In this document: piece after piece, positions 4,134 to 62,421 of the stretch
Numbering within the stretch: the stretch's first letter is position 1
How the letters are laid out: each line of letters starts with the position of its first letter
From: an uncultured Bacteroidaceae bacterium
GTDB taxonomy: Bacteria; Bacteroidota; Bacteroidia; Bacteroidales; Bacteroidaceae
DNA length: 64,000 bases
Direction of reading: 5' to 3'
Assembly (NCBI GenBank): GCA_905235575.1
Contig: CAJOLZ010000017.1
Coordinates: 43,730-107,729 of the forward strand
The notes under the pieces: generated by a model
What the model was told of the DNA's origin: nothing
What the model saw: only the letters and a program-made list of their open reading frames with translations
Databases searched by the model: none
Made by a program: the position numbers and the translations under genes

Positions 4134-4200
4134 AAAAACGCACCACGCTGCGTCGGGCGTCGCACCACGTTGCGCAGGCTGTCGCACCACGTTGCGTTTT
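4134..4200. repeat. 22-bp-period palindromic array #1 (3 cores)
   Basis: CGCACCACGCTGCG-8-CGCACCACGTTGCG-8-CGCACCACGTTGCGTTTT, cores at 4139, 4161, 4183. Confidence 0.95.
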
Positions 4201-21460: not shown

Positions 21461-22606
21461 ATGAGAAACACCAGTTCGAGAACCCAAAAGGCTGCACGGA
21501 CGATTACAATCGTCTGTGGCAGCCTTTTTATGTTCTTCTCGTTTCTCTATCTTTATGTGCTTCAGCCCTCGTTCCTTTGCCAACTTCAGTTTCAGCTTTC
21601 AGCCGGGCAGACGCATTATGTTCCTCTTGTGGGTGCGTTGCTCATCACCCTGCTGCTCACGTTGTTGGGGATGCTCATGCATCGCATACTGCCGCTCCCC
21701 GTACGAATGCAGTCGCTTGCATGGTTCCCCTCCTGTTGTCTGTTGATGCTGCTCACCTGCTGGCCACTGACATCGACGGGCAGCAATACGCGGCCTCTTC
21801 TGTGGATTGCTCTTCTGGCTGTAATTTTCGTCCTGTCGCTTTTTGTGGGGCATGCCTATCCTGATACGAGCAGCGACCGCGCCCCGTTTATTGCCTATCT
21901 CTCGCCAAACCTCATTGTTCTCTCATTGCTTTTCCTGCTGATAGGTCGCATGGGAAATACAGCCACGCCGCTGCAGTACGAGTTGCGAATGGCGCGTCTC
22001 ATTGATGAAGGTCGATACGAGGACGCACTCCGAGTGGGGGAGCACAGCCAGCAGATGTCGCGCCGTCTCACTTCGATGCGATGCTATGCGTTATGCGAGA
22101 CCGGGCAGATGGGCGACCGTCTCTTTCATTACACCCTGCAGGGAGGCAGTCAGCAGATGTTGCCACTCGTTTCCGACACGCTTCTGTTCGTCGACCTGCC
22201 TTCGCGTGTCTACCATCGCATGGGGTATGTGCCACGCGAGGCCGACAGCTTCTCCGTCGTGCAGTTTCTGGAGAAGGCATCTCAGGTCGACACCCTCGGT
22301 TCCCCAGTCCTGCGCACCTATCTGCTCTGTGCCCATCTTCTGGACCACCGTTTGCCGCGCTTTGTCCAGCTCTTGGCCGAGGATTCCATTCCTGCTGCAT
22401 CACTTCCCGAGCACTATCGCGAGGCACTTGTACTCTATGCTTCTCAGGATTCCACCTTCGAGTCACCTGTCGCAGACACTCGTCTGCAGGCCGACTTCGA
22501 CCGATTCCTGCAGACCATGAATGCCGATGCCGACCCCTTGTTGCCCGAGGACCGTTGCCGTCGCGACTTTGCCAACACCTATTGGTATTACTATTTCTTT
22601 CGCTGA
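21461..22606 (+). CDS. Multi-TM hypothetical membrane protein (start 21461 or 21530)
   Basis: Several TM helices then a soluble helical domain; no family recognised with confidence. Confidence 0.7.
   Translation: MRNTSSRTQKAARTITIVCGSLFMFFSFLYLYVLQPSFLCQLQFQLSAGQTHYVPLVGALLITLLLTLLGMLMHRILPLPVRMQSLAWFPSCCLLMLLTCWPLTSTGSNTRPLLWIALLAVIFVLSLFVGHAYPDTSSDRAPFIAYLSPNLIVLSLLFLLIGRMGNTATPLQYELRMARLIDEGRYEDALRVGEHSQQMSRRLTSMRCYALCETGQMGDRLFHYTLQGGSQQMLPLVSDTLLFVDLPSRVYHRMGYVPREADSFSVVQFLEKASQVDTLGSPVLRTYLLCAHLLDHRLPRFVQLLAEDSIPAASLPEHYREALVLYASQDSTFESPVADTRLQADFDRFLQTMNADADPLLPEDRCRRDFANTYWYYYFFR
21486..21529 (+). terminator. Terminator-like hairpin inside the 5' end of ORF 21461..22606
   Basis: AAAAGGCTGC ... 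GCAGCCTTTTT plus inner CGGACGAT/ATCGTCTG; follows the glgB stop. Confidence 0.8.
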
Positions 22607-44289: not shown

Positions 44290-44378
44290 AAAACGCACCA
44301 CGCTGCGTTGCTTGTCGCACCACGTTGCGTAGGCTGTCGCACCACGCTGCGATGCCCGTCGCACCACGTTGCGTTTTT
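44290..44378. repeat. Palindromic array #8 (4 cores)
   Basis: CGCACCACGCTGCG, CGCACCACGTTGCG, CGCACCACGCTGCG, CGCACCACGTTGCGTTTTT at 44294, 44316, 44338, 44360. Confidence 0.97.
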
Positions 44379-50725: not shown

Positions 50726-50810
50726 TGCACCACGTTTTTACGCTTGTCGCACCACGCTGCGAAGGCCGTCGCACCACGTTGCGTTGCCTGTCGCACCACG
50801 GTGCGTTTTT
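50726..50810. repeat. Palindromic array #10 (3 cores + degenerate left core)
   Basis: TGCACCACGTTTTT, then cores at 50748, 50770, 50792 ending GGTGCGTTTTT. Confidence 0.95.
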
Positions 50811-54541: not shown

Positions 54542-54632
54542 AAAAACGCAACGTGGTGCGTCGCTTGTCGCACCACGTTGCGTTGCTTGTCGCACCACGT
54601 TGCGTTGTCTGTCGCACTGCAGTGCGTTTTTC
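54542..54632. repeat. Palindromic array #11 (4 cores)
   Basis: CGCAACGTGGTGCG, CGCACCACGTTGCG x2, CGCACTGCAGTGCGTTTTT at 54547, 54569, 54591, 54613. Confidence 0.97.
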
Positions 54633-54646
54633 GTCACTCCCTCAGC

Positions 54647-55420
54647 CTATCGGATGTTCTTCCTGATTTTGGTGAGGTAGGCATCGAGCTTCTCCTCGCT
54701 GCGGTCGTCGATTATCTGGATGAGTTCCTTGAGCTCGGCCCGAATCTGCTCGACATGGTGCTTGGTGCGCGGGTTGAAGAGAATTTCGCGCAGCAGGGTG
54801 TCGTCCTCGGAGAGCACGCCGCGGGCTATGCCGAGGTGCCGCTTGAAGGTGGTTCCGGGCGCGTCTTGGTGCTTCATGACGGCGGAGAAGACGAAGGTGC
54901 TTACGAAGGGCACTGAGAGGCTGTAGGCCATGGCTTCGTCGTGCTCGTCGAAGGTGTATTCGTGCACATTGAGCCCGAGACGACGGTAGAGGTCGAGGAA
55001 GAAGACGCGGCCCAGATAGTCGCCTTCGCTGATGACGATGGCGTTCTCGTTGGAGAGGGCGCCCAGGTTGGCAAAGGTGGGACCGAACATCGGGTGGGTG
55101 CTCACATAGTGCATTCCCGTGGATTCGTAGAACTCCTTGAACCCGGTCTTGACGCTGCTGATGTCGCTGATGATGCAGTCTTGGTGGAGGTGGGGGATGA
55201 CCTGTTGGAAGACCTCGATGGTGTACTTGAGCGTGACAGCGTTGATGACGAGGTCAGGGCGGAACTGGTCAATCTCGTCGAGGGTGGTGAAGCGCTGGGT
55301 GTTGTAGAGGAAGCGCATGCGGCGCGGGTCTATTTCGTAGACGGCGCACTCGTGGTCGAACGAGAGTACGTCGGCAAAGAAACTGCCCATCTTGCCTGCA
55401 CCGAGTATGAGAATCTTCAT
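54647..55420 (-). CDS. tyrA: Prephenate dehydrogenase
   Basis: MKILILGAGKMGSFFADVLSFDHECAVYEIDP; DISSVKTGFKEF; THPMFGPTFANL. Confidence 0.9.
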   Translation of the reverse strand: MKILILGAGKMGSFFADVLSFDHECAVYEIDPRRMRFLYNTQRFTTLDEIDQFRPDLVINAVTLKYTIEVFQQVIPHLHQDCIISDISSVKTGFKEFYESTGMHYVSTHPMFGPTFANLGALSNENAIVISEGDYLGRVFFLDLYRRLGLNVHEYTFDEHDEAMAYSLSVPFVSTFVFSAVMKHQDAPGTTFKRHLGIARGVLSEDDTLLREILFNPRTKHHVEQIRAELKELIQIIDDRSEEKLDAYLTKIRKNIR

Positions 55421-55432
55421 AGCTCCTGCCAC

Positions 55433-56497
55433 TTACTTGTTGATGATTTCCATCTGCTGACGCACACTCTCGGCGTGTATCTCTTCGTAGACGCGGCGTA
55501 TGAAGGCGGGGTCCATTCCGCAGAGACTTCCCTGGGCGGCTCGTTTGGCGAGTATCTCGGAGTAGCGCTCGCGCTGTACGACGCTCATGTTGTGGTCTTT
55601 CTTGTAGAGGGCTATCTCGCGTGAGACGCGCATTCGCTTGGTGAGGAGATCCATGAGCTGGCTGTCCATCTCGTCGATTTGTTTGCGGAGTGAGACGAGG
55701 GATTCGGTCATCTCGACATTGTCACGGACGACGAGGTGCTCGAGGATAAAGTCGAGTACGTCGGGAGTTACCTGCTGCTTGGCGTCGCTCCATGCCTCGT
55801 CGGGGTTGCAGTGGCTTTCGATGATGAGCCCTTCGAAGCCCATGTCCATGGCTTGCTGGCAGAGGGGTGCGATGAGGTCGCGCCGTCCTCCGATATGGCT
55901 GGGGTCGCAGGCGATGGGCAGGTTGGTGATGCGTCGGTGCAGTTCGATGGGGAGGTGCCAGAGTGGTACGTTGCGGTAGAGTTTCTGGTCGACGCTGCTG
56001 AAGCCTCGGTGGATGGCTCCGATGCGTTTGACACCTGCACCGTTGAGTCGCAGGAGGGCACCTATCCAGAGCTCGAGGTCAGGGTTGACGGGGTTCTTGA
56101 CGAAGACAGGGATGTCAGTGCCTTTCAGACTGTCGGCAAGTTCCTGGATGGCGAAGGGGTTGGCGGTGGTGCGGGCTCCTATCCAGAGGATATCGATACC
56201 AGCCTGCAGCGCGGCCTCCACGTGGCGTGGCGTGGCTACTTCGGTGGCTATGAGCATGCCCGTTTCTTCTTTCACCCGCTGGAGCCAGGGGAGTGCTTTC
56301 TCGCCTTGTCCTTCGAAGCCTCCGGGCTTGGTGCGTGGTTTCCACACTCCGGCGCGGAAGATGTGACAGCCTTTGTGGGCGAGTTCGTGGGCGGTGGTCA
56401 TTACTTGTTCCTCGGTCTCGGCCGAGCAAGGTCCTGCGATGACGAAGGGGCGACGGTTGTCGCTGGGCAGGTTGAGGGGTTGAAGGTCTAAGATCAT
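55433..56497 (-). CDS. DAHP synthase (KDO8P-synthase-like type) fused to C-terminal chorismate mutase
   Basis: FVIAGPCSAETEEQVM, FRAGVWKPRTKPGGFEG, CDPSHIGGRR; C-term LVSLRKQIDEMDSQLMDLLTKRMRVSREIALYKKDHNM. Confidence 0.94.
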   Translation of the reverse strand: MILDLQPLNLPSDNRRPFVIAGPCSAETEEQVMTTAHELAHKGCHIFRAGVWKPRTKPGGFEGQGEKALPWLQRVKEETGMLIATEVATPRHVEAALQAGIDILWIGARTTANPFAIQELADSLKGTDIPVFVKNPVNPDLELWIGALLRLNGAGVKRIGAIHRGFSSVDQKLYRNVPLWHLPIELHRRITNLPIACDPSHIGGRRDLIAPLCQQAMDMGFEGLIIESHCNPDEAWSDAKQQVTPDVLDFILEHLVVRDNVEMTESLVSLRKQIDEMDSQLMDLLTKRMRVSREIALYKKDHNMSVVQRERYSEILAKRAAQGSLCGMDPAFIRRVYEEIHAESVRQQMEIINK

Positions 56498-56522: not shown

Positions 56523-57707
56523 TTATTTTTCTGTTTCTTTGATGCGTTGCAGCGCTTCTGCCATTTTCTGGTCTTTGGCGCAGAGGCTGATGCGGATGTA
56601 TCGGGCTCCGTTGGTTCCGAAGATGAAGCCGGGTGTGATGAAGACGCGGGCTTCGTGGAGGACGCGCTCTGTGAGTTGCTCTACGTCGTCGTAGCTGTCG
56701 GGAATGCGTCCCCAGAGGAACATGCCGACTTGCTGTGGGTCGTAGGTGCAGCCGAGGGCGCGCATGATTTCCTCAGCGATGGCGCGACGGCTGGCGTATG
56801 TCTCGATGTTGGCCTGTGCGTGCCACTCGTCGGTGTTGTCGTAGGCTTTGGCTGCTGCCAGCTGCATGGGACGGAAGGTTCCGGAGTCGATGTTGGACTT
56901 GACCTTCAGTATCCATTGTATGAATGTGGCGTTGGTTGCGAGCAGACCTACTCGCCAGCCTGGCATGTTGTGGCTCTTGCTCATGGAGTTGAACTCGATG
57001 CAGCATTCCTTGGCGCGGGGCACTTGCAGGATGGAGAGCTTCTCGTCGCGGTTGAGGATGAAGGAGTAGGGATTGTCGTTGACGATGACGATGTTGTGGC
57101 GCAGTGCGAAGTCTACGAGCCGTTCGTAGGTCTCGCGGCGTGCCTTGGAACCTGTCGGCATGTGGGGATAGTTGGTCCACATGAGTTTGACGCGGCTGAG
57201 GTCGGCCTTTTCGAGGGCTTCGAAGTCGGGTTGCCAGTCGTTGTCTTGCTTCAGGTCGTAGTTTACGACTTTTGCTCCGAGCAGGGTGCTCAGGCTGGTG
57301 TAGGTGGGGTATCCGGGGTTGGGCACGAGGACTTCGTCGCCTGGATTTACGAAGGTGAGGGTCACGTGGAGGATGCCTTCCTTGCTGCCGATGAGGGGCT
57401 GAATTTCGCTGGCAGGGTCGAGGTCCACTCCGTACCATCTCTGATAGAATCGTGCCATGGCCTGACGCAGTTCGGGTGTGCCTATGGTGGGCTGATATCC
57501 GTGTGTGTCGGGTCGCTGTGCCTGTTGGCAGAGTTCGCGTATGGTTTCGTCGGAGGGTGGCATGTCGGGGCTGCCGATAGCCAGGCTGATGATGTCTTTT
57601 CCTTCGGCGTTGAGGCGGGCTACTTCTTTCAGTTTACGGCTGAAGTAGTATTCGCTCACTGTGGCCAGCCTTTGTGCGGGCTGGATTTCAAATGCTCTGT
57701 TTCCCAT
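56523..57707 (-). CDS. PLP-dependent class I aminotransferase (aromatic/aspartate type)
   Basis: KDIISLAIGSPDMPPS, NYPHMPTG, VNDNPYSFI, EFNSMSKSHNMPGWRVG (PLP Lys). Confidence 0.93.
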   Translation of the reverse strand: MGNRAFEIQPAQRLATVSEYYFSRKLKEVARLNAEGKDIISLAIGSPDMPPSDETIRELCQQAQRPDTHGYQPTIGTPELRQAMARFYQRWYGVDLDPASEIQPLIGSKEGILHVTLTFVNPGDEVLVPNPGYPTYTSLSTLLGAKVVNYDLKQDNDWQPDFEALEKADLSRVKLMWTNYPHMPTGSKARRETYERLVDFALRHNIVIVNDNPYSFILNRDEKLSILQVPRAKECCIEFNSMSKSHNMPGWRVGLLATNATFIQWILKVKSNIDSGTFRPMQLAAAKAYDNTDEWHAQANIETYASRRAIAEEIMRALGCTYDPQQVGMFLWGRIPDSYDDVEQLTERVLHEARVFITPGFIFGTNGARYIRISLCAKDQKMAEALQRIKETEK

Positions 57708-58530
57708 TTCTGTATTCGCCTAAAATTTGAAGCTCGTTCACCAGGGGTGAGATGGCGCCAACGGACTGGCGGTAGCGCTTGTAGTCGGTGAATGAGAGGT
57801 CGATGTAAAACATGTATTGCCATTCCTTTCCGATGATGGGAAGGGACTGTATCTTGGTGAGATTGATTTTGTAGAACGAGAAGATGCTGAGTATGGCGCT
57901 GAGGCTTCCTTCCTCGTGGGGGAGTGTGAAGACGAGGCTGGCCTTGTCGGTCTCCTCTGCGTGTCGCAGGTTGTCGGCCTGTTCGGGATTGCTGAGCACC
58001 AGAAAGCGTGTGAAGTTGTGTTTGTTTGTTTCGATGCCTTCCTCCAGCACCTTCATCCCGTATATTTTTGCAGCGTCTTTGTGGCAGATGGCGGCGTGTC
58101 CGTGAAGGTTTTCGCGGCTTATGTCGGCTGCGGCTCCGGCGGTGTCGGCAGTCTCCACCACCTTGAGTCCGGCGTGTCGGGACAGGAAGTCGCGGCATTG
58201 CATCAGCGCCACGGGATGAGAGTTTACCTCGGTAATGTCGGCCCAATAGTCGTCGGGCAGGCACATGATGCTGTGGCAGATGTGGAGTTTATGTTCGCCA
58301 ACGATGGTAGTGCCGCTGTCGCGTAGGAGTTCGTAGTTGTGGAGCAGACTTCCGGCGATGGTGTTCTCGATGGCCACCAGCGACAGCAGGTCGCGCTCGC
58401 TCTTCATCGCTTCGAAGACATCCTCGAAAGTGTCGCAGCAGCACAGTTCTATCTCCTCCCCGGGAAAGTAGCGGTGGGCGGCGATGTCGTGGAAACTGCC
58501 TTTGATTCCTTGTATTGCTATTCGTTTCAT
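57688..58530 (-). CDS. pheA: Prephenate dehydratase
   Basis: IAIQGIKGSFHDIAAHRYF, VAIENTIAGSLLHNYELL, NFTRFLVLS, ACT-like ESLPIIGKEWQYMFYIDL region. Confidence 0.94.
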   Translation of the reverse strand: MKRIAIQGIKGSFHDIAAHRYFPGEEIELCCCDTFEDVFEAMKSERDLLSLVAIENTIAGSLLHNYELLRDSGTTIVGEHKLHICHSIMCLPDDYWADITEVNSHPVALMQCRDFLSRHAGLKVVETADTAGAAADISRENLHGHAAICHKDAAKIYGMKVLEEGIETNKHNFTRFLVLSNPEQADNLRHAEETDKASLVFTLPHEEGSLSAILSIFSFYKINLTKIQSLPIIGKEWQYMFYIDLSFTDYKRYRQSVGAISPLVNELQILGEYRNGKQSI

Positions 58531-58535
58531 ACTCT

Positions 58536-58573
58536 AAAAAAAGAAGTCCCGCTTCATGGTTGAAACGGGACTT
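58536..58573 (-). terminator. Attenuator terminator directly upstream of the pheA start
   Basis: Minus strand AAGTCCCGTTTCA acca TGAAGCGGGACTT c TTTTTTT; 13 bp with one G-U, then 5 nt to ATG. Confidence 0.92.
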
Positions 58574-58623
58574 TATCGTAAAATTTTTGTTTTTTCTTTG
58601 TTTTTCTCTTACACCTATAACGA

Positions 58624-58632
58624 CCCGTTTCA
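58624..58632 (-). promoter_or_regulatory. Antiterminator segment TGAAACGGG, complementary to the terminator 5' arm CCCGTTTCA (58561-58569)
   Basis: Perfect 9-nt complementarity, starting 2 nt after the leader-peptide stop codon. Confidence 0.85.
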
Positions 58633-58634
58633 CT

Positions 58635-58694
58635 TTATCTGCTAAAGGAAAAGTAATAATAAAAGCCGCTAAAAGAGGTGCCTCGTGTGAACAT
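58635..58694 (-). CDS. Attenuation leader peptide MFTRGTSFSGFYYYFSFSR (unannotated)
   Basis: ATG TTC ACA CGA GGC ACC TCT TTT AGC GGC TTT TAT TAT TAC TTT TCC TTT AGC AGA TAA; 5 Phe + 3 Tyr in 19 codons. Confidence 0.9.
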   Translation of the reverse strand: MFTRGTSFSGFYYYFSFSR

Positions 58695-58720
58695 TTTTCT
58701 GTCGTTTTTTTATTTCGGCG

Positions 58721-58728
58721 CAAAGGTA
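58721..58728 (-). promoter_or_regulatory. -7 box TACCTTTG of the pheA operon leader
   Basis: TAnnTTTG with upstream TTTG about 20 nt away, before the leader peptide. Confidence 0.7.
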
Positions 58729-58820
58729 TGGAAAATTTGGCGTTCGGCAAAGAATTCTGTCGATTTTCTTATGTTTTCGACAGAAAATTGTCGTGGTCAC
58801 CGGCTTTCGGGTTGTAGGTT

Positions 58821-58911
58821 AAAAGACGTACCACGCTTTTTGTCATGTCGCACCACGTTGCGCAGGCTGTCGCACCACGGTGCGTTGCCCGTCGCAGCAC
58901 GCTGCGTTTTC
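58821..58911. repeat. Palindromic array #12 (3 cores + degenerate left core)
   Basis: CGTACCACGCTTTT, then cores at 58849, 58871, 58893 (CGCAGCACGCTGCGTTTT). Confidence 0.95.
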
Positions 58912-58933: not shown

Positions 58934-60226
58934 TTACTCCTTGCAGAGGCGGTATCCGAGGTCTTCCACAGCGCGGCGTGCCTCATCCTCGTCGAAATGT
59001 CCGCGCAGACGTGCCTCGCCTTTTTCCAACGACACGCTGACATCCTCGACCCCCTCTACCGAGAGGAGCGCTCTGCGGGCGTTCTCGGCGCAGTGGTTGC
59101 AGCGCATTCCCTCTACCTTATATATAATATACTCGTCGGCGGCGCAGGCATCATCGCAACAGTGGCACGATTGATTTTGAAACCTCGGCAGATGCAGAGG
59201 CGTGAGGGCGTTCAGCAACAGGAGAATCATCAGGCAGGTGCAGACGATGTTGAACCATTCGGGACCCTCGTTGCAACATGCGGCTTTCATCACCAATCGC
59301 TGCGTGAACCATTCGGTGGGCAGCAGGTAGTCGATGCCCAGACCGAAGATGATGGCACCCGAGACGATGGAGAGCAGGTATAGCACCATGGAGCGGTTGC
59401 CGAGCACCTTGCGGATGACCAGAATGGAGGCGATGTTGCTGGCGGGACCGGCCATCAGCAGCACCAGAGCGGCGCCGGGCGTCAGACCTTTCATCATCAG
59501 TGCCACGGCGATGGGGATGCTTCCGGTGGCGCACAGATACATGGGTATGGCGAAAATCAGCACGAAGAGGATGCTGTAGAACGAGTTGCCCTGGAAGATG
59601 GCAAACCAGCTGTCGGGCACTGCGGCCGTGATGATGCCGGCCACCACCAGGCCTATCACCAGCCACTTGCCGATGTCTTCCATCATTTCCACAAAGGCGT
59701 AGGTGAAGACGCTGCATATGCTCTCCCACGTCCCCTCCGGCCTCTGCGTGCGCTTCGTGTAGTCTTCGTCCGAATCTTCCAACGCGCTCCTGCGGGCTAC
59801 GATTACTTCGTCGTTGCTGTCGAAGACGTTCACCAGTGTCCCGCCAAAGAGAGCCGTCACCAGTGCAACTACGGGGCGCAGCAGGGCAAAAGGCAGTCCC
59901 ATCAGGCTGTATGTGGCGATGATGCTGTCCACTCCCGTCTGCGGAGTGGCGATGAGAAACGATACCGTGGCACCACGGCTGGCTCCCTCGCGGCGCAGAC
60001 CCATGGCTGTGGGCAGTACGCCGCACGAACACAAGGGCAGAGGCACCCCGAAGAGTGCAGCAAGCAGCACGGAGCGGAAGTTGCGTCTGCCCAGATATTT
60101 GATGTATAGTGTGCCGGGTACATAAACGTGCATCAGTCCCGCAAGCAGAAAACCAAGCAAGAGATAGGGCGACATCTCGTTCAACAGCCGCCAGCTTTCA
60201 CGAAGTATGTTCAAAAGAAATTCCAT
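58934..60226 (-). CDS. SO_0444/UPF0718-like permease (Cu/Zn efflux type) with C-terminal HMA domain
   Basis: FGVPLPLCSCGVLPTAMGLRREGASRGATVSFLIATPQTGVDSI; linker CHCCDDACAADEY; HMA YKVEGMRCNHCAENARRALLSVEGV. Confidence 0.9.
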   Translation of the reverse strand: MEFLLNILRESWRLLNEMSPYLLLGFLLAGLMHVYVPGTLYIKYLGRRNFRSVLLAALFGVPLPLCSCGVLPTAMGLRREGASRGATVSFLIATPQTGVDSIIATYSLMGLPFALLRPVVALVTALFGGTLVNVFDSNDEVIVARRSALEDSDEDYTKRTQRPEGTWESICSVFTYAFVEMMEDIGKWLVIGLVVAGIITAAVPDSWFAIFQGNSFYSILFVLIFAIPMYLCATGSIPIAVALMMKGLTPGAALVLLMAGPASNIASILVIRKVLGNRSMVLYLLSIVSGAIIFGLGIDYLLPTEWFTQRLVMKAACCNEGPEWFNIVCTCLMILLLLNALTPLHLPRFQNQSCHCCDDACAADEYIIYKVEGMRCNHCAENARRALLSVEGVEDVSVSLEKGEARLRGHFDEDEARRAVEDLGYRLCKE

Positions 60227-62331: not shown

Positions 62332-62421
62332 GAAAACACACCACGCTTTTCGGCTTGTCGCACCACGTTGCGCAGGCCGTCGCACCACGCTGCGTTGCCT
62401 GTCGCAGCACGGTGCGTTTTT
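62332..62421. repeat. Palindromic array #13 (3 cores + degenerate left core)
   Basis: CACACCACGCTTTT, then cores at 62359, 62381, 62403 (CGCAGCACGGTGCGTTTTT). Confidence 0.95.

Follow-up and report, generated by a model that had tools for sequence, protein, structure and literature searches.

A putative phenylalanine- and tyrosine-sensing leader-peptide attenuator of the pheA operon in Bacteroidota

How is an operon that makes both phenylalanine and tyrosine controlled, and can one short leader peptide report on both end products? This question is raised by the window, i.e., the whole 64,000-nt stretch of DNA analysed here, from an uncultured Bacteroidaceae bacterium. An initial annotation had described a promoter, a leader ORF, an antiterminator arm and a terminator ahead of the pheA start codon, and had read them as classical attenuation by the translating ribosome; every element was found on the minus strand as described. 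Attenuation has so far been studied mostly in Proteobacteria. The E. coli pheA leader attenuator consists of a short Phe-rich leader ORF and mutually exclusive antiterminator and terminator structures upstream of pheA. The window element shares with it the short leader ORF, the exclusive structures and the downstream pheA, and most probably (at a probability of about 0.93, judged from sequence comparison) regulates the pheA-aminotransferase-DAHPS/CM-tyrA operon as a ribosome-mediated transcription attenuator of the trp/pheA type.

Arrangement of the leader region and its predicted mode of action

The following features, given in window coordinates, make up the locus.

58721 to 58751, minus strand: Bacteroidota-type promoter (TTTG at 58751-58748, 19-nt spacer, TACCTTTG at 58728-58721)
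58635 to 58694, minus strand: leader peptide ORF, encoding MFTRGTSFSGFYYYFSFSR (5 Phe codons, 3 Tyr codons; stop codon TAA)
58615 to 58682 (approximate bounds), minus strand: predicted 1:2 protector hairpin, from the RNA fold
58624 to 58632, minus strand: region 2, the 5' arm of the antiterminator (TGAAACGGG), exact complement of the terminator 5' arm
58544 to 58573, minus strand: terminator hairpin, regions 3 and 4 (13 bp, -19.3 kcal/mol), with a U-run at 58542-58536
57688 to 58530, minus strand: pheA, prephenate dehydratase (PF00800, E=2e-54)
56523 to 57707, minus strand: class I/II aminotransferase, presumed aromatic (PF00155, E=4.1e-63)
55433 to 56497, minus strand: DAHP synthase-chorismate mutase fusion (DAHPS/CM; PF00793 and PF01817)
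54647 to 55432, minus strand: tyrA, prephenate dehydrogenase (PF02153, E=5.2e-11)

The leader ORF, which is absent from the annotation of the window, runs over 19 codons from the ATG at 58694 to the TAA at 58637-58635, and its three Tyr codons are consecutive. The TTTG, 19-nt spacer and TACCTTTG upstream of it fit the Bacteroidota -33/-7 promoter consensus; a generic sigma-70 promoter scan was uninformative for Bacteroidota, and no Shine-Dalgarno-like sequence is evident 5' of the window leader ATG. TGAAACGGG is the exact reverse complement, over 9 nt, of CCCGTTTCA within the terminator 5' arm. The terminator loop is ACCA. The stem ends 13 nt short of the pheA start codon (ATG, 58530) and is followed by a C and seven T residues, the last of which lies 5 nt before that codon. 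The Pfam matches agree with all four gene identities assigned earlier. Beyond the initial annotation, a 1:2 hairpin appears in the predicted fold, where two stretches within the leader ORF, GCACCU and AGCGGCUUU, are paired to bases that extend from region 2 into the adjoining GGGUCGUUAUAGGUGU, so that all four classical segments are present.

Within the window, this combination stands out from its background. Among the ATG-started ORFs of 8-46 codons, 3 of 698 contain at least six Phe/Tyr in 10 codons, and the leader ranks top; the other two lie at 22517 (plus strand) and 23151, and the former was rejected as a leader, being the C-terminus of a 381-aa ORF. The pairing between linker and terminator arm was equalled by 1 of 100 dinucleotide shuffles, and none of 200 shuffles was as stable as the fold of the 177-nt leader RNA (z = -3.45).

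From these parts, the following course of events in the cell is predicted, from leader translation and ribosome stalling to termination or read-through. With ample Phe-tRNA and Tyr-tRNA, the ribosome would reach the stop codon at 58637-58635 and cover region 2 (58632-58624), leaving region 3 to pair with region 4, so that the terminator would form and transcription would end before pheA. With either charged tRNA scarce, the ribosome would stall within codons 11-17 (FYYYFSF), and region 2 would be free to pair with region 3, allowing transcription to enter the operon. The attenuator would thus very probably switch the operon on only under Phe/Tyr shortage. Were the leader left untranslated, the 1:2 hairpin might hold region 2 and favour termination; this is tentative, since the hairpin is only partly conserved (at p<=0.05 in 42% of loci).

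The upstream neighbour, at 58934-60226 on the minus strand, is a Cu/Zn efflux permease (SO_0444 type) whose C-terminal domain is heavy-metal-associated. After tyrA, a strong 16-bp hairpin with a T-rich tail (54584-54545, minus strand), probably the terminator at the operon end, overlaps the 10-mer GTGGTGCGAC, a dispersed short repeat with 21 copies in the window versus 0.3 expected, often as 2-3 copies at a 22-nt period. Sites of this repeat, which include 4159-4190, 44314-44367, 50746-50799, 54567-54598, 58847-58878 and 62357-62388, flank the pheA operon on both sides.

Relation to known leader systems

In an Rfam search of the window region, no riboswitch, T-box or other leader family reached its cut-off; the best match, PyrG_leader (29.1 bits against a cut-off of 65), aligns to the terminator. 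Compared with the E. coli pheA attenuator, the window element has no Rfam match above cut-off and no evident Shine-Dalgarno-like sequence, and it mixes Phe with Tyr codons ahead of an operon that makes both amino acids. Bacteroid-trp RNA (RF01692) encodes Trp-rich ORFs and serves Trp genes, unlike the Phe/Tyr operon of the window; it had no match in the window region or elsewhere in the draft genome, whereas a control Bacteroides genome was matched.

ilvGMEDA-type leaders are a precedent for a single leader that senses more than one end product of the same pathway, but for branched-chain rather than aromatic amino acids. Leaders with Tyr codons were not found in a literature search. Among comparative attenuator surveys, one by Vitreschak in 2004 is said to mention attenuators in Bacteroidetes/Chlorobi, and another was reportedly published by Lopatovskaya in 2010. 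Because of the former, an earlier prediction of a Bacteroidota pheA leader is possible.

Bacteroid-trp RNA was itself predicted as a cis-regulatory RNA of amino acid genes in Bacteroidetes (Weinberg 2010, PMC2864571). For Flavobacterium psychrophilum, the available passages of one study describe a structured pheA 5' region conserved in Flavobacteriaceae, and clues to leader-peptide attenuation in amino acid operons (PMC9723704). This 5' element, from a sister lineage, probably corresponds to the window device; its codon content, a covariation test and spread beyond Flavobacteriaceae are absent from those passages. Candidate uORFs rich in Phe/Tyr near shikimate genes are given for five genomes of other phyla in a figure legend (PMC6429828, Fig. 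6b legend), and, as far as that legend goes, they resemble the window leader in their notable Phe and Tyr content and in adjoining aromatic pathway genes. The kind of attenuator is therefore already known, and older surveys may predict this element; what is added here is its phylum-wide spread, the covariation of its arms and the codon split described below. Nearly every Bacteroidota pheA operon in the sampled genomes carries the attenuator, for which there is no Rfam model.

Conservation and covariation across Bacteroidota

Homologues of pheA were gathered from the genus, family, order, class and phylum of the window, and their upstream DNA (151 distinct upstreams) was compared, a leader being defined as a frame with at least six Phe/Tyr in 12 codons. 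Such a leader precedes pheA in 142/151 upstreams, and in 139/151 it is also followed by a terminator, i.e., in 84/92 close relatives, 21/22 from other genera of the family, 11/11 at the order level, 19/20 at the class level and 4/4 at the phylum level; two divergent pheA-like genes lack a leader. A TAnnTTTG promoter motif lies no more than 90 nt ahead of the leader ATG at 117 of 135 loci, versus 7 expected from shuffles. At four order- or class-level loci, two complete, tandem leader and terminator units were observed about 330-90 nt before pheA, which could possibly act as a stacked attenuator with a wider dynamic range.

The two arms change together. At 126/137 loci, the pairing between linker and terminator arm surpasses that of at least 95% of dinucleotide shuffles. 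At 53 distant loci, the mean pairing energy of region 2 is -16.8 kcal/mol with arm 3 of the same locus and -11.7 kcal/mol with arms of other species; none of 2000 permutations equalled the own-arm pairing. Arms as unlike as CCCGCTC, CCTCG and CCCGGT are each matched by their own complement. The mutual exclusivity of antiterminator and terminator, proposed from the 9-nt complement in the window, is thereby borne out across species.

The spacing is constrained as well. In 97% of 137 loci, region 2 starts 5-16 nt past the final Phe/Tyr codon (median 10 nt), versus 22% of shuffled linkers; given the general size of a ribosome footprint, a ribosome halted at the final control codon would have the arm immediately in front of it. 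The leader stop codon is at most 12 nt before region 2 in every locus and beyond its end in 61/137, so that region 2 itself is inside the translated frame there; in the window, the predicted footprint of a ribosome sitting at the stop codon covers region 2. Codon runs, terminators, spacing and covariation in relatives thus uphold the classical attenuation reading.

Codon content after operon division and alternative readings

Both Phe and Tyr codons are present in 141 of the 142 leaders. In the exception, G054 (MTRFFTHFFFFFTQQ), pheA is apart from tyrA, which has its own attenuator with MNNTFGYYAFYYYFFYNN. In G016, pheA alone carries a leader with SFFSNFFFVF, and an aat-DAHPS/CM-tyrA operon about 7 kb away carries one with NAYVYSYYYF; the same pair of Phe-rich and Tyr-rich leaders was found in G397 and G443. 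In eight further genomes, a leader is missing before the separated pheA and retained before the tyrosine unit; in most of them the retained leader is Tyr-rich (that of G415 is MISQQNAYYYSYYYFTQKR). Neither pheA nor tyrA has a leader in two other genomes, and another has none at tyrA. Since most separated pheA genes are without a leader, the device can evidently be lost. The Tyr share is 0-0.29 in leaders before pheA alone (n=4) and 0.40-0.86 in those before separated tyrosine units (n=12; p=0.004), split cases that are few, partly related by descent, in many instances from one genus and mostly from draft assemblies; in pheA-first leaders of undivided operons it averages 0.49 (n=133 distinct). 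Three class-level genomes run counter to this pattern: pheA-DAHPS/CM has no tyrA linked to it, yet the leader is still mixed, which is explicable because DAHPS/CM feeds both products.

These genomes serve as natural tests, in which codon identity, and not peptide sequence, tends to evolve with the controlled genes. They support the proposal, already made in the initial annotation, that one peptide may sense both Phe and Tyr. It is fairly likely that the ancestral state was a Bacteroidota-wide joint Phe and Tyr sensor with codons following operon content, and that after a split the duplicated attenuators specialised (Phe for pheA, Tyr for aat-DAHPS/CM-tyrA) or one copy was lost. The separate Phe-rich and Tyr-rich leaders of G016, G397 and G443 may show how the sensing of several products is assembled and partitioned.

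The same codon data bear on whether the nascent leader peptide, rather than codon starvation, stalls the ribosome, possibly by binding free Phe or Tyr, as the arrest peptide TnaC does with Trp. A strongly conserved C-terminal part, YFYFS[KN], in close relatives would suit such an arrest peptide, but most positions accept either Phe or Tyr, leaders differ in length and flanks, composition turns Phe-rich or Tyr-rich upon an operon split, and across the phylum the aromatic content alone is kept while peptide order is free; arrest is therefore very improbable. Still less probable is that the hairpin mainly controls translation of pheA, whose start codon it adjoins closely in the window (13 nt): in relatives, the stem lies 9-281 nt (median 27) from the start codon, and the U-run is retained. 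It is the freedom in peptide order and the variable spacing between hairpin and gene that make both alternatives fit less well than transcription attenuation. A chance origin, in which A/T-rich intergenic DNA readily encodes Phe and Tyr before an ordinary terminator (reverse strands reach at least six Phe/Tyr in 50/151), is already refuted by the comparative data, as at least eight in 12 codons occur in 132/151 forward, 2 reverse and 0 shuffled sequences, along with phylum-wide conservation, covarying arms and fixed spacing.

Codon usage also differs between leader and gene: across 87 loci from close relatives, Phe is encoded mostly by TTT in the leader (305/378) and mostly by TTC in the downstream pheA (797/1022), the TTT share being higher in the leader at 85 of the 87 loci. 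This bias might adjust the speed of the ribosome or help the region stay free of structure.
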